Assembly (NCBI RefSeq): GCF_002379095.1 | Contig: NZ_NBZV01000018.1 | Location: 1-64,000 of the forward strand | Reading direction: 5' to 3' | Length of the DNA: 64,000 bases | From: Polaromonas sp. AER18D-145 | Lineage (GTDB): Bacteria > Pseudomonadota > Gammaproteobacteria > Burkholderiales > Burkholderiaceae_C | Shown here: piece by piece, positions 1,195-36,121 of the stretch | Layout of the letters: each line of letters starts with the position of its first letter | Position numbering within the stretch: position 1 is the first letter of the stretch | Notes under the pieces: generated by a model | Told to the model about the DNA's origin: nothing | What the model saw: only the letters and a program-made list of their open reading frames with translations | Databases searched by the model: none | Made by a program: the position numbers and the translations under genes

Positions 1195-1254
1195 ATGGAA
1201 CACACAGAAAACAAAGTGATGGCGGGCACATATTCCGAGCAATTAAAGTCGTAA
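1195..1254 (+). pseudogene. 5' end of a small plasmid gene split by the 1231-5752 element
   Basis: An ATG at 1195, preceded by AGAGGAAAAC, opens a frame whose first 12 codons (MEHTENKVMAGT) precede the left end of the inserted element at 1231. The frame then runs into the element and stops at 1254. The other half resumes in the same frame at 5753 (PAISNEWQVRG...). The intact protein would be about 97 residues. Its family is not recognised. Confidence 0.6.
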
Positions 1255-1325
1255 ACACGGCTCTAGCATCCATGCGGGTTTGCGGGGCGTTGGATTTTTG
1301 AGACGGATTTCCAAAGTCGTAAACA
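1231..1325 (+). repeat. left end of the element: terminal repeat plus inner site
   Basis: The outer site is at 1231-1257 and the inner site, CCAAAGTCGTAAACA, is at 1311-1325. The DNA between the sites also matches the other end (CTAGCAT, CATGCG and TTTGCGG blocks). This is the arrangement expected of paired recombinase-binding sites. Confidence 0.7.
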
Positions 1326-1634
1326 TATGCTCAAGCAGGGGAATGATCGGCGGCATTGCCAAGGAGCGGTCGGAATCAGATCAATTCCAAGCGGCGAGTA
1401 TGAGCCCACTGGCAGCATTCGAAATAGCAAGGACCAGACGTTCGCGATTGCCTCATAAAGGGACGGAGCAGCCTAGCCGAGGAAATTCCGAGATCGGTTG
1501 TGGCGTACTCCGGCAGAAAAAACCCACGCAACTTCGCGCGACGCGAAAGTATTGTCCCTGGGATAGGCGAGGTTGATGCTCTGATACATTGAATGCTCTG
1601 ACAAGTCTGATGACGGGTGTGTTACCCTTCATAA
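1326..1634. other. leader region inside the element, no gene seen
   Basis: No plausible coding frame is present. Close to the next gene, CTGACA and TACCCT boxes lie 19 bp apart, just before the ATG at 1635. A 19-bp spacer is typical of promoters controlled by MerR-type regulators, and the gene that follows is MerR-like. The short repeat ATGCTCTGA occurs twice just upstream. These promoter boxes are tentative. Confidence 0.3.
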
Positions 1635-2087
1635 ATGCAATTACTGCAAGCATCCGACGCGGCACGACTGGCTGGGCTTACCATGCACCAGCTGAGGGAG
1701 TGGTGTGCTCGTCGTACTTTGCTGGCGCCAGACGTCCCCGGTGCGGGGCGTGGTCGACACGCGTTGTATTCGTGGCAATCCGTGCTTGCGCTCAGGCTGC
1801 TGCTGGAATTGCAAGACCGCTTCGGTGTCGAAGTGGGCGCCTGGAAAGATGCCATTAAGGAAGTTCGGCAACATCTCCAGGGGAGGTCCTTCCCCGCCTT
1901 GTGGAGTACGGCCGTGGTCTTCCCGGATTGCGCCCATGCGCGCTTGATTGACGAGCGATCTGTCCCTATCGAAGGTCTTCTAGTCCTTCCACTCGCACCA
2001 CACCTTCAAGCGCTGGCCAACTCTTTCACTTTCCCTGTGGAGCCACCACAACGGCAACTCTTTCCGGCGGTAGGAATTCGGCAATGA
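1635..2087 (+). CDS. MerR-like winged-HTH protein of the methyltransferase module
   Basis: This 150-residue protein opens with a MerR-type winged helix-turn-helix (ASDAARLAGLTMHQLREWCA at about residues 6-25, then RGRHALYSWQSVLALRLL). A C-terminal domain with no recognised ligand-binding motif follows. The ATG lies very close to the possible promoter, so the message may be nearly leaderless. Its stop overlaps the methyltransferase start by 4 bases (ATGA), tying it to that gene. It probably regulates the module; a structural role in DNA recognition is also possible. Confidence 0.7.
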   Translation: MQLLQASDAARLAGLTMHQLREWCARRTLLAPDVPGAGRGRHALYSWQSVLALRLLLELQDRFGVEVGAWKDAIKEVRQHLQGRSFPALWSTAVVFPDCAHARLIDERSVPIEGLLVLPLAPHLQALANSFTFPVEPPQRQLFPAVGIRQ

Positions 2088-4549
2088 ATGCAAAGGACAG
2101 CGCCAGCGAGTGGGCACAGCGATTCGGACTTGCGATTTCGCCGCTCTTCGAGCACGATGAGGCTTCAATCCCCGGCTCACATTCGGTTCTGCTAGACGGG
2201 GCAGAGGGTACCTTCGCCATGTCAGTGTCGGAAGACGAACTGTGGCGCACAGCCGAGCCGGCCAACTGGGTTTGGTCAAGTGACATCCCGCATCACGTCA
2301 CGATCACACCCAAGAAGGTTGCGGTGCTGCGATGGGACCGGCCTTCGGACCCTCGCGTATTTGCGCGGGAGAGCATCGAGCGCAGTCTCGACCGCTTCTA
2401 TAAATTTCTGATCGAAGACCGACTGCGCTCGAACCGCACAGTCGTCGACCACCTCCTCGGTTTCTTCCGCCGCCTGCGCTCTCTGGGCAACCTGGCTCGT
2501 TTGCCAGACGCGCGCTCAACCGATCTATTTACTGCTTCACTTGCGCGGCTAATGGCGCCCGCAGACCAGCGCATCTCTCCTGGGACCTATGGGCTAGCCG
2601 AAGATTCGGAAGAACTATTGGGGAGGCTCGATCGTAACGCGCTTGAGGCCATCTTGGAGGAGGTCGGCCGCGGCTCGGCAGTACTTTCGTTGCTAGACTT
2701 GCATCCATCGCTAGCAGTGCGACATGCTGGCGGACAACTGTTCCAGGAGGCTCATTTCGAATTGCTTCGGGGGGCGACGGATTTCGATCTCTTTGGTTTA
2801 GTCGGCAACTCCGAGATTGCAGTTACGAGCCGCGGAGGTACCCACTACACACCGCCGACACTGGCGCGAAGTTTGGTCGAACAAGCGCTGGCAACGCTTC
2901 CCGGAGCACTGAATCGCCGCGAAAGCTTGACAATTTGCGACCCAGCCTGCGGCTCGGGCGCATTTCTCCAAGAAGCCCTGCGCGCGCTTCGACGCCACGG
3001 TTTTAAGGGACGGTTGCGGCTGGTCGGCTACGACATCTCGTCAGCCGCTATCTCTATGGCCCGCTTCGTAGTCGCTGCGTCGCTGAGGGACTGGGCGCCC
3101 GCGGGCGGGGTCGACCTCAATCTCACCGTCGGAGACTCACTCGGCGAACTCGGCATGCCTGCCGCGGACGTTATCGTCATGAACCCTCCATTCGTCGGGT
3201 TCACCGCGCAGACGCCCCTACAGCGCGATCAGTTGACGGCGGCACTTGGAGGGCCAAGCGCCGGGCGAGGCGACTACAGCATGGCCTTCGTGTTGCGCGC
3301 GCTCGATGCGCTCAATCCGGGCGGTGCATTGGGAACGCTGTTTCCCGCAAGCCTGTTGTCGTTAAAAGCAGCCTCGGGCTGGCGCGAGCGCTTGCTGGAA
3401 GTGTCCGACCTCTGTTTCCTGGCTTCTATCGGCGATTTCGGCCTGTTTTCTCATGCTCTGGTACAGGTTGCAGCGGCTGTGTTTAACAAGGGGCAGGCTC
3501 CCGACCGCGAGCTCATCGCACTGATAACAGAGAATGATCCAGCGGCCACGAGCGTGGCCTTACGCCAGCTCCGAAAGGCCGGCCACAGCGCGCCGGTCGC
3601 TCCTGTCGCCGAGGATGCTTGGAGTATTTTCCCAGTGCCGGTATCCGTACTACGCGACCGACCGACCTGGCGCCTACCCAAGCCGAGCGCTGAGCGCCTG
3701 ATAAGGAGGCTTTCTCAGTCCGGCCTACCGGCCCTCGGCGATCTGTTCGAGATATCTCAGGGTATACAGACTGGACTGAATAACGCGCTGCTGCTCACGG
3801 CGGAAGAACTACGGGGCTTACCTGCGAGGGAGCGCCGCTACTTCCGTCAAGCCACAATGACCGACTCTATTCGCAATGGTCACATCGTGAAGCCTTACTG
3901 GCTGTTTTTCCCGCACGAAGCAAGCGGGCCAATGTTCCCGGATGAGGCGGCCGTTCAAAAAGCAGTGCCTCAGTACTTCGAGCTGTTCCTGACGCCAAAT
4001 CGCACTCGGCTTGAAGGCAGAGCCGCCATCGTGCGATCCCGTCGCGCTGACTGGTGGGGCTTGATGCATCCACGTGAGTGGAGCTTGCTTGCCAAGCCCC
4101 GCATCATCACGAAGTTCTTTGGAGCCGAAGGCGCGTTTGTTGGCGACTACGAGGCCGCATTCTTTGCGGTCATGGGTCATGTGTGGACGCTGAAACCGAG
4201 GGGCGTGACCGACTCGTCAGACACTGGAGAGCAAGGCGTCGAGCAGATGCCAGAGCAGGATCTCTTGGCCGCGTTCGTCGCTCTCTGCAACTCGGAAGTC
4301 TTCGTCAAACTCCTGGGCCTATATGCCCCGAACGTCGCCGGAGGTCAGTTCGACCTGAGCGCCCGCCACTTGACGCCGATACCAGTCCCAGACCTTCAAC
4401 AGCTTTCTCTCGGGCCGGAGACAGGTCGCGCGGTGCGCGAACTGGCAGTCCTCGGACGAGAGGTAGATGTGGGCAGCCCTCTGTGGAGCAAGCAGGCGAT
4501 CGCACTGGCCGAACTGCTGTACGGTGGTATCGACCTTGACGCCCTCTGA
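2084..4549 (+). CDS. N6-adenine DNA methyltransferase, Eco57I/TaqI-like
   Basis: This 821-residue protein has a SAM-binding motif I, CDPACGSGAF (about residues 284-293), and a catalytic NPPF motif (about 366-369) for exocyclic-amine methylation of adenine. An N-terminal domain of about 250 residues has no clear nuclease signature. The C-terminal part (about 500-800; ISQGIQTGLNNALLL, PNVAGGQFDLSARH) looks like the target recognition region of TaqI/Eco57I-type enzymes. It is shorter than BREX PglX (about 1,200 residues). It is flanked by coupled HTH and unknown genes inside a mobile element, so it may be the modification half of a restriction or defence system. Confidence 0.82.
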   Translation: MNAKDSASEWAQRFGLAISPLFEHDEASIPGSHSVLLDGAEGTFAMSVSEDELWRTAEPANWVWSSDIPHHVTITPKKVAVLRWDRPSDPRVFARESIERSLDRFYKFLIEDRLRSNRTVVDHLLGFFRRLRSLGNLARLPDARSTDLFTASLARLMAPADQRISPGTYGLAEDSEELLGRLDRNALEAILEEVGRGSAVLSLLDLHPSLAVRHAGGQLFQEAHFELLRGATDFDLFGLVGNSEIAVTSRGGTHYTPPTLARSLVEQALATLPGALNRRESLTICDPACGSGAFLQEALRALRRHGFKGRLRLVGYDISSAAISMARFVVAASLRDWAPAGGVDLNLTVGDSLGELGMPAADVIVMNPPFVGFTAQTPLQRDQLTAALGGPSAGRGDYSMAFVLRALDALNPGGALGTLFPASLLSLKAASGWRERLLEVSDLCFLASIGDFGLFSHALVQVAAAVFNKGQAPDRELIALITENDPAATSVALRQLRKAGHSAPVAPVAEDAWSIFPVPVSVLRDRPTWRLPKPSAERLIRRLSQSGLPALGDLFEISQGIQTGLNNALLLTAEELRGLPARERRYFRQATMTDSIRNGHIVKPYWLFFPHEASGPMFPDEAAVQKAVPQYFELFLTPNRTRLEGRAAIVRSRRADWWGLMHPREWSLLAKPRIITKFFGAEGAFVGDYEAAFFAVMGHVWTLKPRGVTDSSDTGEQGVEQMPEQDLLAAFVALCNSEVFVKLLGLYAPNVAGGQFDLSARHLTPIPVPDLQQLSLGPETGRAVRELAVLGREVDVGSPLWSKQAIALAELLYGGIDLDAL

Positions 4550-5291
4550 GCTTAAAAGGCGTCGCCTACAGGCGACGAAGGCGCAGTTGGACCAGCGATG
4601 GGGCAGAATCGAGGCTCTTCTCAATACCTGCTTGGAGCGTCCCAAGCGGGCGATCCGCGTGGAAGCCGACTACCAGGTCAATGGCGTGTGGACGGGACTT
4701 TCGGGCGAGGCCATCGAGAGGGTCGAGCGTAATCGCGGAACCGCAAGCGTTGCCCAGCTCCTGCCGCTACCCGGCGATCTGTTCGCATGGCTGGGATACC
4801 AGGAGATCTGGGATCTCGACAGTGGCCGGAACTTTGCCTTCCGACAGGCTGGCCTCACGGTGCATGTGGGCGAGTTGAGTGACCCCGTCAAACCTCAGCT
4901 ATTCAGACTTGAATGGCCGGGATTGAGAGACTGGGACCGCTCCGGCATTGGATTTCAGAGTCGTGGCGCGGGTCATCCACATTGGCAGATTGATGTGCTT
5001 GAGAGCCTTCATGCGCGGCGCGACAGTACGCCGTTCGACCCTGAGCCCAAGGAGGACGTCGAAGACTTCGATGCCGAAATCACTACCCGGCCTCTGTTGG
5101 ACCGCATCCGGGCACTGACCATCGAAAAAATGCACTTTGCAAGCGTTGCGCCATGGTGGCTAAGTAACACCGCTGAATTCGGGCAGCATCACTTCAATGC
5201 ACCGCACAGCCAAGAAGACCTCATGCGCTGGCTCACGTCCGCGGTTGTCTACATCAAGCAGGAACTCTCCCGCTGCACCATGCGTCGCTAG
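4523..5291 (+). CDS. unknown protein, third gene of the methyltransferase module
   Basis: This protein of about 256 residues is not recognised. It overlaps the methyltransferase stop; a GTG at 4523 is the likeliest start, giving an N-terminus of VSTLTPSELKRRRLQATKAQ. The N-terminal 50 residues are helical and basic. The middle has a histidine-rich segment, GAGHPHWQIDVLESL. The C-terminus has PWWLSNTAEFGQHHF followed by a helix. No PD-(D/E)XK, HNH or PLD motif is clear. Its position suggests it is the effector or partner of the methyltransferase, but that is inference. Confidence 0.6.
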
Positions 5292-5500
5292 CGTTCTTCA
5301 GTTCTTCGGCCTACTCTTGATGTCCGCTCCGTGGCGACGACTCAATTGTCTGCTTCTGGTCAGTCTGCCAAAGGGCTGGGTCCACCAGTTCTGGCGCGGC
5401 CCGTTTTGAAAGCGCGTTCCGCGGGATAGAGTAACTGGGGACCGGTATAGTAAAGGTCGACGCTACCTTAAATAGACTAAGGTCCATTGTGGGTCTGTCT

Positions 5501-5608
5501 AACAGCACCCGCGTGATCGATCAACAGCCCCGCCGCGAACGGCCCGATGAAGCCGGATATGGCCGTTCCAATTGACAGCCAGCCGAATACCTGTTTGAGT
5601 CCACCGCT
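5501..5608 (-). pseudogene. fragment of an MFS transporter
   Basis: About 36 codons on the minus strand (LKQVFGWLSIGTAISGFIGP, then FAAGLLIDHAGAV) read like two transmembrane segments and a loop of a major facilitator transporter. Both ends are cut off, and the fragment lies between the last cargo gene and the element's right end. It suggests an earlier cargo was lost. The rest of 5292-5657 holds no gene. Confidence 0.5.
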
Positions 5609-5657
5609 CCACTGATCGCGCGGCCCGCATGCCTTTGGATGACGCAGCGCGCCAATG

Positions 5658-5752
5658 TGTTTACGACTTTGGCTTTGAGTGTTGTTGATTTGGTACACCG
5701 CAAAGGCGCATGAATGCTAGTCGGCTGTTTACGACTTTAATTGCTCAGAATA
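5658..5752 (-). repeat. right end of the element: inner site plus terminal repeat
   Basis: The inner site (5658-5672) and outer site (5726-5752) are inverted copies of those at the left end, with the same 80-bp offset. The outermost base, 5752, directly abuts the resumed reading frame of the split gene. Confidence 0.7.
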
Positions 5753-6007
5753 CCAGCCATCAGCAATGAATGGCAAGTGCGCGGTATCAGCGACGTGATT
5801 CCGGCCCTTGGTGCAGTGGACTGGACTTCCGGTCAGGTCAAGGTGTCGGCAGAGGTGGCCAGAGAGATTGCGGCCGATTGCGAGTTCTATATCGACCCCA
5901 AGGCCGTCGATGCGACAGCAGGCGAGCGTGCCGCGTATCGTGGCCTTTTGCGCCAGGTGCGTGAAGCAAACTCAAACCAAGAGGAAAACAATTCATGCAC
6001 AACATAG
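5753..6007 (+). pseudogene. 3' part of the small plasmid gene split by the element
   Basis: This continues the frame begun at 1195: PAISNEWQVRGISDVIPALG and onward, to a stop at 6005-6007, 85 codons. Removing exactly 1231-5752 would rejoin both halves in frame with no extra bases. The domain is unknown; it is a small soluble protein rich in Ala, Val and Asp. Its last codons overlap the start of the next gene at 5995. Confidence 0.55.
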
Positions 6008-6065
6008 CGGCCGTCAATAAGAATCACACCCATTGGACGAACAAACTGGAGGCTGAACTCTCGAT

Positions 6066-7387
6066 GAGGGTGTCCCGAATTTTGTGTAAACGGGGCGAGC
6101 GTTAAGTTTTGGGCATTCTCTCCTCGAACTGGATGGTAAACCGGGTCAATGCAGCCTTCCAGTCTCTGAGCGGCATCGTCCATTTCTTGCTGATGTTGGC
6201 CAGGGCCAGATAGAACAATTTCAGCAACGCATCGTCACTGGGGAATGACCCTCGGTTCTTGGTGATCTTGCGCAAACTCATGTTCACCGACTCAATCGCG
6301 TTGGTCGTGTAAATGATGCGTCGTATCTCCGGCGGGTAGTCGAAGAACGGTGTGATGCGTGCCCAGTTGCTGCGCCAGGATTTGACGATGGTCGGGTAGT
6401 CAGCGCCCCACTTATCCTCGAACTCATTGAGCCGGATGGCTGCTTCGTCCACGGTGGCGGCAGCATAAACAGTCTTCAGGTCAGCAGCCACCGCCTTGCG
6501 CAGCTTCCAGCTCACGTAGTTCAGACTGTGGCGCACCATGTGCACCAGGCAAAGCTGTACCGCTGTCTTGGGGTACACGGCTTCAATGGCATCTGGGAAG
6601 CCCTTCAAGCCATCCACGCAGCAATGAAGATGTCCTGTACACCCCGGTTCTTGAGTTCAGTCACTACTTGCAGCCAGAACTTGGCACCCTCGGTCTGGGC
6701 GATCCACAGGCCCAGGATTTCCTTCTCACCGGCCATGCTGACACCCAGTGCCAGGTACACGGCTTTGGCACGTACCGCACCGGCATCACGGGTTTTGACG
6801 TGGATGCAGTCCAGGTAGACGATGGGGTACAGCGCGTCCAGCGGACGGGCCTGCCAGGCTTTGGCTTCTTCCATGACGGCATCTGTCACCGATGAGATCA
6901 GGGTGGGCGACACCTCTGCGCCGTACATTTCTTCCAGGTGACTCTGGATTTCTCGCACCGTCATGCCACGGGCATACAGCGACAGGATTTTCTCGTCAAA
7001 GCCTGCCCAGCGGGTTTGGTGCTTGGTGACGATCTGCGGCTCGAAGCTGCCGTGGCGGTCTCGGGGGATTTCTATGGGCAGTTCGCCAAAGTCGCCTTTG
7101 AGGGTTTTACGGCTCTTGCCGTTTCGGGTGTTGCCCGCAGCGTTGGCCACGCTCTCATGCTTGGCATGGCCCAGGTGTTCGGCCATTTCGGCCTCAAGGG
7201 CTCGCTCTACCAATTTCTTGGTGAGTTGCTTGAGCAAGCCGTTCTCACCGATGAGGTCTTCAGGTTTCTTGTAGTCAGCCAGCAGGCTGTCGATCAGTTC
7301 GTTCGTGACGGTCATTTGTTTGCAGTTCCATTGAAGTGCAGCAGTTTCCTGCCAATTGACCGTTTACACAAAAGTTCTTACACCCCC
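6066..7387 (-). mobile_element. IS256-family insertion sequence
   Basis: The ends are imperfect inverted repeats sharing GGGTGT and TTTTGTGTAAACGG. The element is flanked by the 8-bp direct repeat CTCTCGAT at 6058-6065 and 7388-7395. The 1,322-bp length and 8-bp duplication fit the IS256 family. Its only gene is a frameshifted transposase on the minus strand. Confidence 0.88.
6102..7315 (-). pseudogene. IS256-family (mutator-type) transposase, frameshifted
   Basis: The N-terminal part (7315-6605, [20 protein letters not shown]) and C-terminal part (6617-6102, [20 protein letters not shown]) together give a full mutator-type transposase of about 400 residues. They meet at a single-base loss near 6615, where DIFIACVDGLKG is expected and DIFIAAWMA-stop is read. 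The catalytic block around DGLKGFPDA falls exactly at the frameshift, so the enzyme is probably dead unless this is a sequencing error. Confidence 0.85.
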
Positions 7388-7926: not shown

Positions 7927-8055
7927 ATGGAAACTGTGTTTTTCTTTTTGCAACTGGCAGCACTGGCCGCAGCGATAGGTGCAGGCGCTGCCATCCTCTG
8001 GGGTTGCCTGTTGATGATCACGGCCGGGCTTCGCGTGTTAGGCGTCCTGAAATAA
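7927..8055 (+). CDS. 42-residue hydrophobic protein, last gene of the decayed operon
   Basis: ATG at 7927, after AAGGCGGAAACC, opens a 42-residue frame (METVFFFLQLAALAAAIGAG and on) that is almost wholly one or two transmembrane segments with a short basic end. It ends just before the terminator at 8072. Its family is unknown. It is the only apparently intact gene of this operon. Confidence 0.5.
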   Translation: METVFFFLQLAALAAAIGAGAAILWGCLLMITAGLRVLGVLK

Positions 8056-8071
8056 TCGGCCTAAGCGGGGC

Positions 8072-8103
8072 AAAAAAAAAGCCACTTTTCAGTGGCTTTT
8101 TTC
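8072..8103. terminator. bidirectional rho-independent terminator
   Basis: The stem AAAAGCCACT / AGTGGCTTTT with loop TTTC has A and T runs on both sides. It sits between the convergent plus-strand operon and the PRTRC operon, and can end transcription from both. Confidence 0.85.
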
Positions 8104-8113
8104 ATACTTTCCC

Positions 8114-8980
8114 TCAGGCAGATGCTGCGTTCGCAATCGCCGCTTTCGCATCCGTCCTCGCCTTGATGCTTGGACGTATCACCTTGTGACGCCGGCCGTC
8201 TCTGACCACGCCGAAGCGCGCCCAAACCGCAGGGTCCACACGAAGTGGTGTTACCACCATTCGCTCAAGGTTCACAAATACCCCGTGCGTGTCAACTTCC
8301 CCCTTTGTGAAGAGATTCCACAACAGGTTGCCGGCAAAGTCAGCCAGCGTTGGATTGATAAACAGGCTCTGCTTCTCCAGCGCTTCCGCCAATGAGCAGG
8401 ATGGCGTATCGTCAGAATCCTCAAATGCAGGATCGATGAGTTCCGGATAGAGCTCGCCTACATGAGGTAGCCTCAACTTGTCCTCACCCACCTTTCGGCG
8501 GCTGCTGACTTGTCCGAGGACTACCTGGCCGTCTGCTCGCCTGTTACCCATGTCCATCCAGTAGCGGAGCCCGCTCATGGTGTTCTCCAATCCCCGAAGG
8601 ATTCCGAGCCGGGCTGCCCGGTTATCGACTGCGCCGATCACGATGTCGTAGGCAGACAGATTACTCTGCGTGTCCAGCTTTGCAACGCAACTTTCCCAGA
8701 CCGCATCTTCCAGCGCCATGTTTGCCCTTGTCACGAGGATGTCGGCCTTGTATGCGCCTACGTCGCCCGGATAGAATGCCTGTCGGCCAATGTTGGCCGG
8801 CGAGACGGTATCAGGATCCACCACCACAACGTCGAAGCCGTGTGGGTGCCCTTTCGCCTTGAGCGCCTTGTGCAGGCACACCAGCTTCTCCAGCATCCTG
8901 CTTCCCGTTCCGCCCGCGCCGACCAAAAGGATCTTCACGGGCTTCGTCAGCAAGTCAGATTGCAAACTGTGTTTCATCAT
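8114..8980 (-). CDS. PRTRC system ThiF (E1-like adenylating) protein
   Basis: This 288-residue protein has the nucleotide-binding loop LLVGAGGTGSRM (about residues 19-30), the DPDTVSPANIGRQ segment that matches the ThiF/E1 adenylation domain, and a conserved cysteine in DTPSCSLAEAL that would form the thioester. By family it activates the C-terminus of a ubiquitin-like protein with ATP. The start at 8980 overlaps the stop of the A gene (ATGA), so it is the last gene of the F-B-A-ThiF block. Its substrate would be PRTRC protein C; that pairing is inference. Confidence 0.88.
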   Translation of the reverse strand: MMKHSLQSDLLTKPVKILLVGAGGTGSRMLEKLVCLHKALKAKGHPHGFDVVVVDPDTVSPANIGRQAFYPGDVGAYKADILVTRANMALEDAVWESCVAKLDTQSNLSAYDIVIGAVDNRAARLGILRGLENTMSGLRYWMDMGNRRADGQVVLGQVSSRRKVGEDKLRLPHVGELYPELIDPAFEDSDDTPSCSLAEALEKQSLFINPTLADFAGNLLWNLFTKGEVDTHGVFVNLERMVVTPLRVDPAVWARFGVVRDGRRHKVIRPSIKARTDAKAAIANAASA

Positions 8981-9597
8981 TCCAAAACCTCCAGTGTTCC
9001 GTCGGCGGCCATCGTGGCCGCCCATGTTTTCCCAAGCAGATTCAAACGCATCACTGTCGTCGGCGTTCCTTTGTTCAGGTCGCCGATCACACCACTGAAT
9101 TTCATTGAACCTGCGTCATCCGCATCATCTTTTCTTGAAAAATGTGCGTCAAATTGCCCATGGCTATGGAGATCGAGAACAAGGAATTCCCCTTCTTCCA
9201 ACTTGACTTCCTTGTAATTTACGAACGCGTGCCCCGCCGAGAGGCTTTCGCGAACTGCATAACGCCAGCCACCGGTGGCCTGGTTCCATATCATTGCCGC
9301 CGCCATCTCGTCGGGACCGGCAGCGTAAGCGTCACGCACAAACTTCTGGCGCAGATCCCTTGGTATCGGGCCGCAAAGCAACTCGAGCTCGGCATGCAGC
9401 GTCCCATAGGGCAGCGGCATATCGCACGCAGCAATCAGATGAATGCTACGAATCCAGGGAAGCGTGACCTCACGCCACAGTCCATCTTTGGCCAAAATGT
9501 GCCGCGCTCCCGGCTTTACCGACGCTTCAAGGCTTGAGAAGCGAGGCGCGGAGACAACCGGAAAGGCGGCCTGAACGACCTGGTCCATCGTCTCCAT
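8977..9597 (-). CDS. PRTRC system protein A, JAMM-like metalloprotease
   Basis: This 206-residue protein contains HSHG followed by FSRKD, fitting the JAMM zinc-protease signature HxH-x7-S-x2-D (about residues 150-165). In this family the domain removes ubiquitin-like proteins or trims their tails. Its start overlaps the B stop (TGATG) and its stop overlaps the ThiF start. An upstream in-frame extension exists but lacks a ribosome site and would overlap B. Confidence 0.8.
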   Translation of the reverse strand: METMDQVVQAAFPVVSAPRFSSLEASVKPGARHILAKDGLWREVTLPWIRSIHLIAACDMPLPYGTLHAELELLCGPIPRDLRQKFVRDAYAAGPDEMAAAMIWNQATGGWRYAVRESLSAGHAFVNYKEVKLEEGEFLVLDLHSHGQFDAHFSRKDDADDAGSMKFSGVIGDLNKGTPTTVMRLNLLGKTWAATMAADGTLEVLE

Positions 9598-10376
9598 CAA
9601 AATTCCCCTTGCGCCGTCATCTTGGATGCCCGAGCGGTGAAATCCGGCGCCAGCAGATCGCCTACCTTGAAACCGATCTTCACCAGCTTCTTTTTCGGAA
9701 ACGTCTTCAGAGGCTTGGTGACCATCATTTTCCAAAACACAGCCGGATCCTCTCCGAGGATCAACCGGTCCTTTTCAGTGAAGTTCGGATGGGTAAACCG
9801 GGAGCCGAACAGGAATTTCTCCCACTCCCTGGTTTCTCCCTTCTTCCCGTCGACAGGGGCCACAGCATTGCCATGACAGACCTGCCCACTCGCCCAAACA
9901 TTGAAGAGCGGCGCCTGAAACAATGGGGTCTCCTGCGTTGGCATTCCATCCCCTTCAAACGCGTAGACGTACAGGCTGGTGCCTGTCGCCTGCCACACCA
10001 TTCCTGGCACCGGGCACATCGCCTGGCCCCTGAAGGACCTGGCGTTGTGCTTTGATGCCGCAAAGAACATGGCTCGCGTCATTGGTGGCGTCCACCAGAT
10101 CATGCGTCCGAGGCCCCTGGCCAGCACACTGTGATCCTGCCACTCAACTTGGGGCCGACTTTTCGGAGCGAGCTGAGCAACGAGTGCTGCAAAGTCTTCC
10201 TCCGTCATTGGGCGTCCTGCTTCGATTTGTGGCCGTTTCTGATCCGCGCTGACTGCGTGAATCGTTGCAAAGGCGTTCGATTGGCGTCCGTACATCGAAT
10301 CAAGATTCTGTCGGTAGAGCAGAATCGCCCCGGTGATTTCAAACTGACTTCCAGTTACTAAAACACTTGTTTTCAT
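9597..10376 (-). CDS. PRTRC system protein B, E2-like fold
   Basis: This 259-residue protein starts at ATG 10376. It contains APLFNVWASGQVCHGNA (about residues 165-181), a pattern close to the active-site strand-cysteine region of E2 ubiquitin-conjugating enzymes (P..N...G.xC). The cysteine would take the ubiquitin-like protein from the ThiF partner. It begins 1 base after the F stop and is coupled to A. The enzymatic role comes from published comparative work on PRTRC-like systems as I recall it; activity is not shown here. Confidence 0.78.
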   Translation of the reverse strand: MKTSVLVTGSQFEITGAILLYRQNLDSMYGRQSNAFATIHAVSADQKRPQIEAGRPMTEEDFAALVAQLAPKSRPQVEWQDHSVLARGLGRMIWWTPPMTRAMFFAASKHNARSFRGQAMCPVPGMVWQATGTSLYVYAFEGDGMPTQETPLFQAPLFNVWASGQVCHGNAVAPVDGKKGETREWEKFLFGSRFTHPNFTEKDRLILGEDPAVFWKMMVTKPLKTFPKKKLVKIGFKVGDLLAPDFTARASKMTAQGEF

Positions 10377-10377
10377 T

Positions 10378-11493
10378 TCATTGTTCCTCTGCGAACGGGA
10401 AACACGAGACCAGCATGGCCATCGCATTCCATCGTCCTAGGTAATCCCGCAGGTCGCGGGCCAGATTTTTGATTTCTTTGCTTGAGGCATCGAGCGGAAC
10501 CCAGGCCCTACCCTGGTACTCGTAGGCTGTCCCATTTTCATAGGCCCCCCTCTCCGAGTGCTCAATCATCTCAAGCAGTATGTCGGTCTCTTCCCAGGCC
10601 ACGATGCAGACCGCTCCGACCTGTTCGGGATAGTCGGCAAAGTCTTCTCCGTCTTCAGGGTCGACATCTTCGCCAGACCAGCTGAACGCGTGGGCCTTGT
10701 CCTTCTTGAACAACTTGTCCAGCGCGATTGCAGCCTGAACGCATTTGGCCAATTCGGGTTCAAAAGCGATGCCAGCAAACGCCGCTTCTGCTCGCTTGCT
10801 TACGAAAGCCCTGCGATTACCTGGGCCGCTGCTATCTGCCCAGCCAAGCAGGTGCTTGTGCCCATCAACTTGGCGAAGCACGTCAGACGGGAGGTACGCA
10901 TAGTCATCCCGGTAGGCCTCAATGAGCTTTGGGATATCTGCGTCCTCTGGATGGTTGCCATGCTCTTCAGCGTAAAGGTTCTTGGCAAACTCTTCGTCGC
11001 TTTCAGCTTCGAAGAGATAGGCCTGCGACTGATACCCAAGGAGGCGGCAGTCATAGACGTTCATGGCGTGCCCTGCGGCCCGTCCAAGTACATCTAGCAC
11101 ATACCAGCCGAGGCCGGCCATTTTCGATTCCAAAGCGGTAATGACCGGCTTTGCCTGAACCATGACGAGGTTGGGACTCGACGCAATTCGCGCCTCCAGT
11201 CGCTTGTTCGTGACAACGATTTCGAGGTTGCCCGCGAGGAAATCGTTCGATTCTGGCCCCATCGTCGCTTTGTAGTAGTTCCCCCATTGCTGGTTCACTA
11301 CCTCTTCGATCGAGACGAAATTGCCACCTGGCAGTGGTATGCCAATCGCTTCGGCAGCCAGCGCGAACTTGGCCAGTACCTGGTGCTTGACGGATTCTTT
11401 TCCCAGACGCACCGGAATATCCGAGGCGATCTGGGGGAGCACGAATCTGCCAGGGCTTCTCAGCCGTGGGCGCTCCAAAAGACTGTTTTTCAT
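10378..11493 (-). CDS. PRTRC system protein F
   Basis: This 371-residue protein begins at ATG 11493 with AAGGAACTCC just upstream; a longer in-frame extension runs through a terminator and a hairpin and is unlikely. The N-terminal LPQIASDIPVRL matches PRTRC F. The C-terminal half is acidic (SGEDVDPEDGEDFADYPEQV). Its biochemical role is unknown. It heads the F-B-A-ThiF block and has its own leader hairpin (11511-11538). Confidence 0.8.
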   Translation of the reverse strand: MKNSLLERPRLRSPGRFVLPQIASDIPVRLGKESVKHQVLAKFALAAEAIGIPLPGGNFVSIEEVVNQQWGNYYKATMGPESNDFLAGNLEIVVTNKRLEARIASSPNLVMVQAKPVITALESKMAGLGWYVLDVLGRAAGHAMNVYDCRLLGYQSQAYLFEAESDEEFAKNLYAEEHGNHPEDADIPKLIEAYRDDYAYLPSDVLRQVDGHKHLLGWADSSGPGNRRAFVSKRAEAAFAGIAFEPELAKCVQAAIALDKLFKKDKAHAFSWSGEDVDPEDGEDFADYPEQVGAVCIVAWEETDILLEMIEHSERGAYENGTAYEYQGRAWVPLDASSKEIKNLARDLRDYLGRWNAMAMLVSCFPFAEEQ

Positions 11494-11510
11494 GGAGTTC
11501 CTTATGAACA

Positions 11511-11538
11511 GGAACCCATGCCCAACGGGATGAGTTCC
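11511..11538 (-). promoter_or_regulatory. leader hairpin before PRTRC F
   Basis: On the minus strand GGAAC / GTTCC form the outer arm, with CATCCC-GTT-GGGcATG inside. It ends 18 bases before the start codon. It belongs to the hairpin family described in the findings. Confidence 0.6.
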
Positions 11539-11584
11539 CGAGGGTGAATGAGATGCGCACTCTGCAGTGAGCAGGCGCGCGAAA

Positions 11585-11596
11585 GGCATGAAGCCA
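11585..11596 (-). repeat. 12-mer TGGCTTCATGCC, copy 1
   Basis: On the minus strand TGGCTTCATGCC lies about 92 bp upstream of the F start. The same 12-mer lies about 100 bp upstream of the gene starting at 12966 and about 75 bp upstream of the phosphoesterase gene. It may be a shared promoter or activator element. Confidence 0.45.
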
Positions 11597-11646
11597 AACA
11601 CCCCAAATCTAGCTGGTTTCGGGGCGAAGTGCAAAAGTTGACGGCC

Positions 11647-11679
11647 AAAAAAAATCCGCCTCCCAGGGGAAGGCGGATT
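11647..11679 (-). terminator. rho-independent terminator between the 11728 gene and F
   Basis: The stem ATCCGCCT / AGGCGGAT is followed on the minus strand by a run of eight T. F therefore needs its own promoter between about 11500 and 11646. Confidence 0.8.
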
Positions 11680-11727
11680 AGCGTGTTTGGTCTGTAAATT
11701 CAGCTTCTGATCAGTCACATGGACGTT

Positions 11728-11970
11728 TCAGACTTGGTAGTGCTTTCGAACCAGCAGCCGGCGAACGGCATACGGTTGCCCGAGGGTGACCTCAACGGGC
11801 GCAGCGACAACCAAGTTTCGAAGCGCAGCAGAGCGAACCCGTGCGCTGTAGCCCTTGTCAAGGATGATTCGGACAAGGTGATGAATCGGCAACACACCAG
11901 TGGCGCGAAGATGGCCAAAGAATGCCTGGCGTGTTCTGCTGAGCAGGTGATAGTTTGAGCAAGATGACAA
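11728..11970 (-). CDS. small hypothetical protein in the PRTRC region
   Basis: This 80-residue basic protein probably starts at TTG 11970, with GGAG 7 bases upstream. The C-terminal half (ALRNLVVAAPVEVTLGQPYA) has strand-like alternation; no family is recognised. Support comes from the leader hairpin at 11991-12011, placed as for its neighbours, and from the terminator after its stop. The opposite strand also has an open frame, but that one lacks a leader. Confidence 0.5.
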   Translation of the reverse strand: MSSCSNYHLLSRTRQAFFGHLRATGVLPIHHLVRIILDKGYSARVRSAALRNLVVAAPVEVTLGQPYAVRRLLVRKHYQV

Positions 11971-11990
11971 GGCGACTCCAAAAGGATGGC

Positions 11991-12011
11991 CCTGCGCCCT
12001 AAAGGAGCAGG
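11991..12011 (-). promoter_or_regulatory. leader hairpin before the 11970 start
   Basis: On the minus strand CCTGC-TCC-TTTA-GGGC-GCAGG forms a compact hairpin 21 bases before the TTG start. It is a smaller member of the shared leader-hairpin family. Confidence 0.5.
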
Positions 12012-12111
12012 ACTCGTGAAGGGAATTTGTGGGAAAGCTCTCAGTTGTCGCGTCAGGCAGTGGCCCTACCCCTTTTCAGGGCAAGAGCCACGACCTTTGC
12101 GAATCAACCGG

Positions 12112-12966
12112 TCAGGCTTCGGCTGGCTGGGCCAGCTTCCGCTTTTTCGGCGCCGGCTTGATCATCGCGACCGCGGCGAGCATCCAGCGGCCGTCATCAA
12201 TGCCGTCAATGAGCACCTCGCCGAGCTGGTTGAAGTACACATTTTCGAGCACCAGGGGACCGGAGCCGCTGTCGGGGGTGAGCCTGACAGAGTAGACGTC
12301 CATTGCCCGGTCATACGAAATTTCGACCTGGCCCTTGTGCTTTTCAGTGCTCACAGACATCCGGATTGCCGGAGGACTTGACGCGCTTTCACTTTCCACC
12401 GGATCGTTGAAGGTCAGACCCGTGGCGTTGGCGTCAATCAGCACGTTCACAACTGCGCGCAGCCCATTGCTCACCGGCATCCGTTCAAGTTGCGTAATCA
12501 AGTCACGCAGGTAGGGATTGCGAATCTCGGTGTAGGCGTCTGCAAAGCGCTCATTGATTCCCAGGTACCGGCCCTCCCATTTGACGGGAAACAGGCTTGT
12601 CGCGCCGGTGAGCATGACGGTTCGGACCCCGCGATGCGAGGGATCGTCCGAACCGTCGGCCTTGGTTCCGTCGAAGCGCTTGGGCTTGTAGAAGGTCAGG
12701 CCAATCTTGTCGCCTTCAGCGACCGGCTGACCCAGCAATGCGTTCGAAACGACGCAGAAGCAGCTTGCGGCGGTCTTGACGAGGGTGAACTCTCCACCGA
12801 CTTCCGCCACTTTTCCCTCACATGGTGGAAGGAACGCGATTCCGCCGAGGGAGTTGTGGCTGACGTCGCCCAAATACGAACTCCACTTGTAGCGCCGGAT
12901 GTTGCTGCCAAGATGTTTCGAAACGACGGCACGCAGCCAGATTTCAGCTTGTTGTTTGAGACTCAT
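12112..12966 (-). CDS. hypothetical protein of the PRTRC region (284 aa)
   Basis: This 284-residue protein is of unknown family. It has a mixed alpha/beta composition, no signal peptide or membrane segment, and a lysine-rich C-terminus (KPAPKKRKLAQPAEA) that may bind nucleic acid. AGGAATCCC precedes the ATG. The message carries a long leader hairpin (12992-13027) and a TGGCTTCATGCC box upstream. It sits between PRTRC genes on the same strand, so a linked function is likely but unproven. Confidence 0.7.
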   Translation of the reverse strand: MSLKQQAEIWLRAVVSKHLGSNIRRYKWSSYLGDVSHNSLGGIAFLPPCEGKVAEVGGEFTLVKTAASCFCVVSNALLGQPVAEGDKIGLTFYKPKRFDGTKADGSDDPSHRGVRTVMLTGATSLFPVKWEGRYLGINERFADAYTEIRNPYLRDLITQLERMPVSNGLRAVVNVLIDANATGLTFNDPVESESASSPPAIRMSVSTEKHKGQVEISYDRAMDVYSVRLTPDSGSGPLVLENVYFNQLGEVLIDGIDDGRWMLAAVAMIKPAPKKRKLAQPAEA

Positions 12967-12991
12967 TTTCGGGATTCCTAAAGTAAGAAAA

Positions 12992-13027
12992 CCGAGAGCC
13001 TCAGCCCGACCGGGATGAGGATCCCGG
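12992..13027 (-). promoter_or_regulatory. leader hairpin before the 12966 start
   Basis: CCGGGA / TCTCGG form the outer stem, CTCA / TGAG the middle stem and CCC / GGG the inner stem around GGTC. It ends 25 bases before the ATG and is the clearest three-tier example of the family. Confidence 0.6.
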
Positions 13028-13433
13028 TGGATTGATGTTGAGGGCCGAAACTAGTCCGGCGAAACTGGCATGAAGCCAATGACGATCGAATTGTGCCCCG
13101 GAGTGAACGAGTTCGCAAATGATGGTGGTCTATGCGTCATCCGGTCACAACTAAGCGGGCGCGCGCCCAGGGTCACCTGGAGAAGGGTCGACGGGCTGGC
13201 AGGGGGAAATCCCGGGAGGCGCCAACGACTCCCCCCGGGAGGATGCTCAGGAACAGTACTTCAAGAGAAACAGACACAGCAGTGCTACAAGCCAAAATCT
13301 GAAATCGTTCATTTCTTTCCTTTTTTGCCGGCAACCGGCCGGCGCACACCTGAAAAGCGATTCGGGCAGGATCTGTAGCAACCTTTTCTTATATGCATGA
13401 ATGCTCGACCGTGATCCGGGGTCTCGAGGCAGG
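13028..13433. other. non-coding stretch with a 12-mer box
   Basis: No gene is convincing here. It holds the second TGGCTTCATGCC 12-mer (13067-13078, minus strand) and a GC-rich palindrome GCCGGC-AACC-GGCCGGC near 13329 that lacks a terminator T-run on either useful side. Its lower half is the 3' exon side of the intron at 13434. Confidence 0.4.
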
Positions 13434-33907: not shown

Positions 33908-36121
33908 CTAGTCTCCTAGGGGATTGACTTTACGAGCTGCCTTCACCTGTGCCGAAATATCTTGCTCCACATACTCCGCGGTCGTGGTAATCGATGCATG
34001 ACCGAGCAGCTGCTGGGCAAGTTTGAGGCCTTCATCGCCGTTGTTCTCGCGCAGGACCTCGTGTGCGTAGGTATGACGAAGCCAATGTGTGCTGAACCTC
34101 AGGATGCGAGCCTGCATTTCTGGGCCCCGCTCTTTTCTGGCCATCTGCCGGAAAAACGTCTTCAGGGTTCGATAGAGTCCATTCGTGCTCAGCGCGCCGT
34201 TGTCATGGGCCATCGCCGTGTCATCGGTGATGGCGCGCCCACCCGAGCGAACCGGCGCCTCCAGGGCGGCGATGAGGGGAGGGGAGAGATCGAAGGCTGC
34301 AATGCGTGCCGCATCTTCTGGCATCAAGGCCCGCCAGTCCGCATGGTGCTCCTCAATCATGTTCATAAGCTTCACGCTAATTGGAACTGCGCGCTTCTTC
34401 TTACCCTTTCCTACGACCGTAATAACCCAATCATCGGCGGCCCTGCCATCGACACGCGGGTGGGCAAGGCTGTTCATGTTCGCCGAGGAGATCTCGGCCA
34501 AACGCATGCCGGTGGTCAAGGCAAGGTGCAGGATCAGCCGGGTCCGGCGGGCGAGGGCGGCTTTGCGCAGCGTTGCGGACGTGAGGCCGGGGAGGGTGGC
34601 CAGCGCTTCGCGCACAAGGTAGAGGTCGTCGGCGTGCAGGCTGCGCGTCACATCCATGGCGTGGCGCTTCATCCCGCCGGCATCGTACTGGATGCTCTCG
34701 AAGGGATTGCCCGTCACGTAGGCGTTTTTGTGGAGCGCATTGTACATCTGGTACAACACGCCGAGCGCGTAGTTCTGGCTGCTCGCCTCGAGCTGGCCGC
34801 GCCAGGGCCGCCAGCGCGGATCGTGACGCGGGACCCGTGCAGTGGTGGTGTAGCGCCCAGGGATCGCCCTGAGAAACGCCTGGTACTGCTGGGCCAGACT
34901 CAAGGTGATCGACGACAGCGGGCACTGTGCTTCGAGCATAGCCCAGATGTAAAACCGTTCGACTTCGCGGCGGTAGGCGTCAAAGGTCCGCTGTTTGCCC
35001 GCGGTTAGGTAGCCATTGAGCCAGGCGCCGATGGCCTCGATGTCGGTTGTCGCGCCCAGGTGATTCGGCGTCTGCGTCCTGAAGATGCCGGCCTGGCCGT
35101 CCAGGGCAGGCGGCACCAGCAGCAGCTCCAGCGGCGCGATGCCGGAGCGCAGCGCCAGCGCGTTCGGGGCGGGGGACGCGATGCCCGATTCCTGACTGTA
35201 GGTGAGCAGGGCGGCGGCGGGCGCGCGCTGCAGCGGCACGATGACTTGGGCCAGGGGAGGGGCCACTTCCCAGTGCGCACCCCAGCGCAACAACGGTCCC
35301 AGCGTGTCGGCGTGGTCTTCGAGCCAGCCCTCGATACGTGCCGCGCGGCCCGGGCCCAGTCCCTTGATGTCGCGGTGCCAGTGCCGGCCGGCGACGGAGA
35401 TCGACTGCACGACACCGGCCATGGTCGTGACACCGCGGCGCGCAAACGCCTTGACGAGCGAAGCGGCCAGCCACAGTTTCGTGCTGTGCTCGGGCTGGGG
35501 CAGGGTGGCCAGTTGGGTCTGCAGGGCGTTGATCGCCTTGACCTTGGCGGTGACGCTCAAGGACTGGTCCGCGACTTCGAAGTGGCCGCCGCTGCCGGGC
35601 TGAACACCCTGGTCGGCGAGGTAGTCCTTGTAGCGCTCGACTATCTCGTTTTCGTTATACATGTCCTCGGGTTGCGATTCGGTCCACTGCGTATAGGCCA
35701 GGTGCGCCTGCGCGACGGCGGCCGGCGCGGCCACGGGTTCGGGGGTAGGGCGTTCCAGGGCCAGCGCCGCCGACTTGGCTTCGGGCTTGTTGGAGGCGCG
35801 CGCGGCGGCGAGGATCGCCAGCTGCAGGCGGTCGGCGTGGCTGTTGATCTCCGTGCCGTGCGGAATGATCGGGTTGCCGTCGGCGTCGAAGTGGCGGTTC
35901 GCGTAAAACTGCTTGTAGGCCACGGCGGGTTTCATGCCGCTCATGACGCCGCGCACAAACGAAAAGTCCTCCAGCGTGAGCTGGTCCAGGTTCGCCAGCG
36001 TGGGCATGCGCCATCCGACGGGTCGGCCGCGCTTGGGCTTGAGGGGAAGGGCGGTTTCGCCGGGGGCCGGCGGCGGCGCCTCCAGCACCACGAAACCCGA
36101 GACGGTGGTGCGCGCCGTCAT
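33908..36121 (-). CDS. large tyrosine recombinase (integrase)
   Basis: This 737-residue protein has an N-terminal module (FVRGVMSGMKPAVAYKQFYA, about 45-65) like DUF3701 integrases. SAM-like and helix-hairpin-helix-type segments (IKGLGPGRAARIEGWLEDHA) follow, then a C-terminal phage-integrase domain. Catalytic residues are visible: Arg in TTGMRLAEISS, the HWLRHTYA box, the GHASI histidine and the tyrosine in TAEYVEQD. The start at 36121 overlaps the preceding gene's stop. The GC content is clearly above that of the plasmid backbone, suggesting separate origin. It may act in multimer resolution or integration. Confidence 0.85.
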   Translation of the reverse strand: MTARTTVSGFVVLEAPPPAPGETALPLKPKRGRPVGWRMPTLANLDQLTLEDFSFVRGVMSGMKPAVAYKQFYANRHFDADGNPIIPHGTEINSHADRLQLAILAAARASNKPEAKSAALALERPTPEPVAAPAAVAQAHLAYTQWTESQPEDMYNENEIVERYKDYLADQGVQPGSGGHFEVADQSLSVTAKVKAINALQTQLATLPQPEHSTKLWLAASLVKAFARRGVTTMAGVVQSISVAGRHWHRDIKGLGPGRAARIEGWLEDHADTLGPLLRWGAHWEVAPPLAQVIVPLQRAPAAALLTYSQESGIASPAPNALALRSGIAPLELLLVPPALDGQAGIFRTQTPNHLGATTDIEAIGAWLNGYLTAGKQRTFDAYRREVERFYIWAMLEAQCPLSSITLSLAQQYQAFLRAIPGRYTTTARVPRHDPRWRPWRGQLEASSQNYALGVLYQMYNALHKNAYVTGNPFESIQYDAGGMKRHAMDVTRSLHADDLYLVREALATLPGLTSATLRKAALARRTRLILHLALTTGMRLAEISSANMNSLAHPRVDGRAADDWVITVVGKGKKKRAVPISVKLMNMIEEHHADWRALMPEDAARIAAFDLSPPLIAALEAPVRSGGRAITDDTAMAHDNGALSTNGLYRTLKTFFRQMARKERGPEMQARILRFSTHWLRHTYAHEVLRENNGDEGLKLAQQLLGHASITTTAEYVEQDISAQVKAARKVNPLGD

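Follow-up and report, generated by a model that had tools for sequence, protein, structure and literature searches.

Within a 64,000-nucleotide window of Polaromonas sp. AER18D-145 (contig NZ_NBZV01000018.1, positions 1 to 64,000; "the window" denotes this whole stretch), a segment of 4,522 bp (~4.5 kb) on plasmid-like DNA, with termini at 1231 and 5752, is best explained as a non-autonomous element whose ends are those of a Burkholderiales family of Tn7-like transposons, is probably a recombinant, and would be mobilisable in trans; we put the probability of this account at roughly 0.8. That the ends are of Tn7 type is near certain, the non-autonomous nature of the element is well supported, and its putative mobilisation in trans is plausible. 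An earlier reading of the letters alone (the sequence-only reading) had described a mobile element whose paired end sites serve one enzyme that is not encoded inside. This description held, in that the segment is bounded by R and L ends of a type that bounds tns elements elsewhere, the paired sites are putative binding sites, and no recombinase or transposase gene lies between them; the class of enzyme that it had given as an example, a trio of tyrosine recombinases, did not hold, as the ends go with a Tn7-like DDE transposase (TnsB). The features of the element are as follows.

1226..1230, no strand: left flanking 5 bp, GCACA, unlike the right flank (no target-site duplication)
1231..1325, + strand: R-type (glmS-side type) end, terminus TATTCCGAGC, TnsB-like cores at 1245-1257 and 1313-1325
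1635..2087, + strand: MerR-like helix-turn-helix (HTH) protein, 150 aa (Pfam MerR_1, E 8e-6)
2084..4549, + strand: N6-adenine DNA methyltransferase, 821 aa, with ~245 aa extra at the N-terminus (Pfam N6_Mtase, E 5e-15)
4524..5291, + strand: conserved protein without family, 255 aa, probable GTG start (longest open reading frame from 4467)
5505..5657, - strand: gene fragment joined to the L end, which we take to be MFS-transporter-like; common to three other Polaromonas elements
5658..5752, - strand: L-type end, cores at 5658-5670 and 5726-5738, terminus TATTCTGAGC
5753..5757, no strand: right flanking 5 bp, CCAGC

Doubled ends and the family to which they belong

The outer repeats (1231-1257 and 5726-5752) are identical at 26 of 27 positions, inner CCAAAGTCGTAAACA copies start 80 bp inside each terminus (1311 and 5672), and the two ends match without gaps at 70 of their first 98 positions. 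Each end reads TATTC[C/T]GAGCAATT, then a 13-bp core, AAAGTCGTAAACA, and then a second core 68 bp further in, a core-to-core distance that is the same at left and right. These data confirm the doubled, equally spaced end sites of the sequence-only reading, together with the matching blocks in register between them. A lone 13-bp inverted match weighs little, because half of the mononucleotide shuffles of the region (100/200) contained a single one; what counts for real ends is the 26/27 repeat, the duplicate core and the equal distance between cores. Six copies of the exact 13-mer are present in the assembled genome (135 contigs, 4.82 Mb in total), always in 68-bp pairs, and the three pairs are the two ends of the element and one end on contig C51; the pattern read backwards was found 0 times in the same assembly. 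A chance origin of the end repeats was rejected, since the exact 13-mer occurs in the genome solely as such pairs. Between the cores, the block CTAGCATyCATGCG..TTTGCGG lies in register at both ends (1263-1285 and 5698-5720). The same block, which differs from the TnsB core, recurs across the R and L ends of the family, and it could be a host-factor site or a degenerate site. In the left end of one CRISPR-associated transposon (CAST), the two outer TnsB sites flank a site bound by IHF (PMC10201428).

The genome_contigs collection, which holds one genome for each of 84,980 species, was scanned for two cores 45-70 bp apart, and 110 stretches with doubled cores were obtained, the record titles of which are mostly Burkholderiales and above all Comamonadaceae. 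When the open reading frames of these stretches were clustered by blastp, one protein cluster adjoined an end in 36 loci, and the one representative tested was GlmS by its Pfam domains (SIS and GATase). In 31 of the 36 loci, the glmS stop codon is followed by the terminus after 21-25 bp, and in the remaining five the distance is 5, 27, 122, 139 and 223 bp. This position just past glmS is that of attTn7. The TnsD protein of Tn7 recognises the 3' end of glmS, as stated in PMC11406308. Typical core positions in the family are 0, 20 and 80-88 for R ends, which lie on the glmS side, and 0 and 67-68 for L ends, on the far side. The end symmetry emphasised in the sequence-only reading is not fundamental: the 68-bp spacing is present at both ends here, but R ends of the family usually have three cores and L ends two. 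The left (R-type) end of the present element lacks the outer 20-bp core repeat that is usual in family R ends, and it is 94-95% identical over 84-85 bp to the R ends of three relatives (L033, L043 and L077). Taken together, arrays of TnsB-type sites were found at both ends, with R and L distinguishable, and the 13-bp cores are putative TnsB binding sites.

Two further arrangements were seen among the family loci. In six loci (L025, L026, L059, L064, L082 and L115), from Pseudorhodoferax, Diaphorobacter, Variovorax (two), a Ralstonia metagenome-assembled genome (MAG) and Bordetella ansorpii, a two-core end and its 20 bp of outside flank are identical within common gene content; this end is probably part of one widespread larger mobile element. 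In four loci (L020, L073, L077 and L076), outward-facing ends lie 45-46 bp apart from core start to core start, and these are tandem Tn7-type insertions with a spacer of 4-5 bp.

The ends were also compared with those of Tn7 itself. In plasmid R721, the Tn7 R end reads TGTGGGCGGACAAT followed by AAAGTCTTAAACT, and another site of this kind lies 41 bp inward; the element has the same 14-bp terminal offset and agrees at 11 of the 13 positions of the core. The element shares with Tn7 and the glmS-targeting Tn7-like transposons the arrays of ~20-bp sites with core AAAGTCnTAAAC and the 14-bp terminal offset (PMC8649781 and PMC11406308), as well as defence-type cargo; its relatives further share the R end beside glmS, the 5-bp duplications, and TnsABC with TnsD. 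It differs from Tn7 in that it carries no tns gene, its termini are TAT rather than TGT, and it has two cores per end, and the present copy differs in being neither at glmS nor flanked by a duplication.

Transposition genes and paired elements

A full set of transposition genes was found in Acidovorax sp. 210-6, where glmS adjoins an R end at 521.9 kb and the L end follows at 596.5 kb. The 74.6-kb element between them is flanked by a 5-bp CCGGC duplication and contains tnsA, tnsB, tnsC, a TniQ protein and TnsD (PF15978, E 9e-58); its TnsB had no Pfam match and aligned with the solved Tn7 TnsB (7pik) at E 1.2e-42. In a Polaromonas MAG (L033), one contig carries tnsA, tnsB, tnsC, TniQ and TnsD at 29-48% identity to the 210-6 set together with an R end that is 94% identical to the left end of the element over 84 bp; the L end of this relative was not found by the end-pattern search. 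The second TniQ next to TnsD in these autonomous relatives suggests a second targeting route, which could reach plasmids. Conversely, no tns gene was found inside the 4,522-bp element by tblastn with the five Tns proteins of Acidovorax sp. 210-6, and no recombinase or transposase was found among its three proteins with Pfam. The same ends are thus found around other cargo, in Polaromonas sp. AET17H-212, and around transposition genes, in Acidovorax sp. 210-6, which was the check that the sequence-only reading had proposed for itself.

The distribution of TnsB was assessed in 86 genomes with these ends; three loci without a terminus (L040, L060 and L104) were treated as chance or unrelated repeats, and the count keeps the genome of L040 but neither those of L060 and L104 nor the locus L122 from a viral contig. 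A TnsB with at least 42% identity is present in 15 of the 86 (13 near full length, two partial), and the other 71 lack a close TnsB, six of them having a weaker match of 24-29%. Many of the 86 are drafts or MAGs and most show one end by pattern; relic ends and assembly gaps are therefore likely among them. A TnsA model matched 14 of 39 genomes carrying such ends. The 18 short stretches around TnsA matches (L123-L140) contained no core pair, only isolated cores with 2-3 mismatches; this would be expected if tns genes lie deep within the elements, but it proves nothing.

Convergent pairs of ends on single contigs were searched for in 79 of the 86 genomes (G006, G015, G016, G027, G453, G461 and G480 were omitted) and in the element's own genome. 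Nine pairs are known: eight from these 80 genomes, and L013, which has a degenerate R end.

Rhodoferax sp. U2-2l: 14.8 kb, duplication AACAC, tns-less
Acidovorax MAG L013: 4.4 kb, duplication GCACA, tns-less, with a P450 gene
Burkholderiales MAG Ga0074133: 8.0 kb, duplication CGCGC, tns-less
Burkholderiales MAG bin34: 35.9 kb, duplication ATACC, tns-less, with a close TnsB on another contig of the genome
Acidovorax sp. 210-6: 74.6 kb, duplication CCGGC, contains the full tns set
Polaromonas sp. AER18D-145, element 1231-5752: ~4.5 kb, no duplication (GCACA / CCAGC), tns-less
Polaromonas AET17H-212: 2.0 kb, no duplication (CCTGG / GCTTC), tns-less
Acidovorax SRB_14: 15.5 kb, no 5-bp duplication but a longer, shifted flank repeat, tns-less
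Polaromonas P2-4: 65 kb, no duplication, R terminus damaged, no TnsB match in the genome

An exact 5-bp duplication is thus present in five of the nine. Seven of the nine were examined whole and had no match to the five 210-6 Tns proteins, and four of these seven have a duplication. Under the mechanism that we favour, TnsB of a related autonomous element would bind the 13-bp cores; such a relative, if present in the same cell, could supply TnsA and TnsB to pair and cut both ends, along with TnsC and a target selector (TniQ/TnsD); and the three-gene cargo could then be moved in trans. To move, the element probably needs relatives that reside in other genomes.

Origin of the present copy and competing explanations

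The contig of the element has a 66-kb sister in Polaromonas sp. AET17H-212, with blocks of 5-18 kb at 91-97% identity, and both contigs appear to be plasmids. The sister carries a tns-less R and L element in the same neighbourhood and orientation, between blocks matching 886-1173 and 8019-13433. Its L end and MFS-like fragment are 99.2% identical to 5505-5756 over 253 bp, and its cargo includes a PIN-domain protein and a 248-aa protein without family. Across three Polaromonas loci (L042, L107 and L108), the L end with the fragment is 98.0-99.2% identical to that of the element over 249-253 bp, and the alignment among the Polaromonas elements breaks down inward of ~5505. In two further Polaromonas elements, L108 and L042/L194, the L end and fragment at 98-99% are followed by E1-E2 and JAB genes (the family matches were obtained for L108, and the same open reading frames are present in L194), and L194 has a type I methyltransferase beyond these genes. 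One L end therefore occurs with at least three kinds of cargo. The missing duplications and an L end common to different cargos fit recombination between resident elements better than fresh transposition, and the present copy is probably a recombinant, that is, a hybrid of elements. A further L-type end of the family is found elsewhere in the same genome, on contig C51 (10000-30730; L009 and L007), beside a defence-type gene run that encodes a DRT1a reverse transcriptase-nitrilase, an LmuB-like ATPase, a DrmMI-like methyltransferase of 1696 aa and a DruE-like helicase of 1774 aa; a second end of this element was not found in C51:1-50000, nor by pattern genome-wide.

However, it should be noted that several observations weigh against the account of a trans-mobilised element. 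The copy at 1231-5752 lacks a 5-bp target-site duplication, because of which its movement as a unit is not established; the AET17H-212 element likewise has none. No autonomous partner was found in the assembled host genome, where the best TnsB match was at 26% identity (E 2e-6); searches of this genome with Mu-transpos_C and TnsA gave no matches, but control genomes gave none either. In Tn7 of R721, a search for the core motif that allowed one mismatch matched the R end but not the L end. Where tns-less elements do have duplications, an originally autonomous element may have shed its tns genes once inserted. Lastly, gene type and neighbourhood are the only grounds for the putative defence function of the cargo.

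A competing explanation is a dead remnant: an autonomous Tn7-like element from which internal deletion or recombination removed the tns genes, and which has since stayed put, with no mobilisation in trans; we regard this as a serious contender whose chances are a little short of even. Neither the element copy nor its sister has a duplication, and the 71 genomes with ends and no close TnsB are as expected of old relics. Furthermore, the 2-kb AET17H-212 element looks as if internal deletion had produced it from a larger defence island, found in Polaromonas sp. 39-63-25; there, an identical R end adjoins the same PIN genes, and a separate contig carries the same L end. However, the ends and termini of the present element are intact, and four other tns-less elements, one of them the 4.4-kb unit with the P450 gene, retain exact 5-bp duplications.

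The ends also form a correct convergent R and L pair at a transposon-like distance, and the sister contig has such a pair in the same orientation, within the same conserved backbone blocks, around other cargo. Both facts speak against two ends from separate insertions that happen to bracket a resident methyltransferase operon, in which case the 4.5 kb would never have been one transposon. This explanation would account for the missing duplication, for the difference in GC content between the trio (0.604) and the end regions (0.515 and 0.547), and for the different closest relatives of the R and L ends, but we consider it unlikely. Tyrosine-recombinase sites of a RIT-like or GInt-like element, a reading for which the inverted, paired and regularly spaced sites might speak, were rejected as highly improbable, because these ends enclose a tnsABC/tnsD element, are located at the Tn7 attachment site and give 5-bp duplications, and no such recombinase was found inside the element (the seven Phage_integrase matches in its own genome are all outside it).

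Beyond Tn7, the non-autonomous element most resembles engineered mini-Tn7 vectors, in which two Tn7 ends surround cargo and the transposition genes act in trans (PMC1475584 and PMC4321384); unlike these, it is natural with natural cargo, and its trans supply is conjectural. RIT elements also have inverted terminal repeats and occur in beta-proteobacteria and on plasmids, but they are defined by three tyrosine recombinases (PMC3414803 and PMC10214605), of which the element has none, its end type going with Tns proteins. The Tn7-like survey pipeline of Benler et al. (PMC8649781) has tnsB as its minimal requirement, and elements consisting of ends without tnsB therefore fell outside that survey. 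No description of non-autonomous or tns-less Tn7-like elements was found in the literature searched, although one in a journal not covered may have been missed.

Cargo, significance and surroundings

The three cargo genes are tightly packed, in agreement with the translational linkage proposed from the letters: the stop codon of the HTH gene overlaps the methyltransferase start (ATGA, 2084-2087), and the likely GTG start of the third gene (4524) overlaps the methyltransferase by 26 bp. The nearest solved protein to the methyltransferase is M.BseCI (PDB 7qw5; residues 250-743, E 6e-11). As in M.BseCI-type Type II adenine methyltransferases, both the methyltransferase and the following region align; the element's protein differs in its extra N-terminal part, its fixed HTH and third partners, and the lack of a recognised nuclease. 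The third protein had no Pfam, NCBIfam or PADLOC match, its AlphaFold model is uninformative (mean pLDDT 36), and it has conserved motifs GHPHWQxD and E-MH-AS-A-WW. With regard to Type II restriction-modification, the methyltransferase is clear, and the third protein has no family match and no usable model.

The trio recurs on plasmids in Sphingomonas sp. NY01 (HTH 47%, full-length methyltransferase 62% and third protein 45% identity) and in Sinorhizobium mexicanum (43%, 49% full-length and 34%, respectively), where it adjoins a protein matching PDC-S28 of PADLOC. No core with two or fewer mismatches was found in the fetched stretches around these two trios. Among 299 family genomes, the element's own included, a full-length methyltransferase match was found only in its own genome, and the best other match covered 235 of 821 residues at 30%. 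Viral contigs yielded no relative of the third protein; for the methyltransferase, a search of phages returned two matches, both weak and partial. Judged by gene type, the cargo is probably a restriction- or defence-like module of an HTH regulator, an adenine methyltransferase and a partner, and a defence role is plausible.

A wider picture is offered tentatively, as a possibility that we doubt somewhat more than we credit: a natural guild of satellites, units with Tn7-type ends but no tns genes, would carry exchangeable defence-type modules on the plasmids and chromosomes of Comamonadaceae, would rely on Tn7-like transposons resident at glmS for movement in trans, and would exchange cargo through recombination between the ends that they share. 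If mobilisation in trans is true, defence modules on plasmids would gain a route onto and off chromosomes without a transposase of their own. The many genomes with ends and no close TnsB indicate that DNA that is, or formerly was, mobilised by Tn7 may be partly uncounted, and the ends offer an end-based way to find its cargo. In addition, a rare, conserved trio of HTH protein, methyltransferase and third protein is now available as a test subject.

The element is flanked at left by a toxin-antitoxin pair, a PrlF/MazE-like antitoxin with a PIN toxin (268-887), and a small open reading frame, and at right by an unrelated gene (5753-6007). The single plasmid homologue of the right-flank gene is in Rhodoferax ferrireducens T118 (61% aa identity), and 398 other family genomes had none; convincing left-flank homology was not found in T118, and the search yielded no empty site. 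Next to the right flank is an IS256-family-like element (6058-7315), whose stretch 6058-6300 shares 81% identity with a sequence annotated as ISPa1328. Elsewhere in the window, an 817-aa open frame with two separated Phage_integrase matches (33962-34567) encodes an unusually long tyrosine recombinase.

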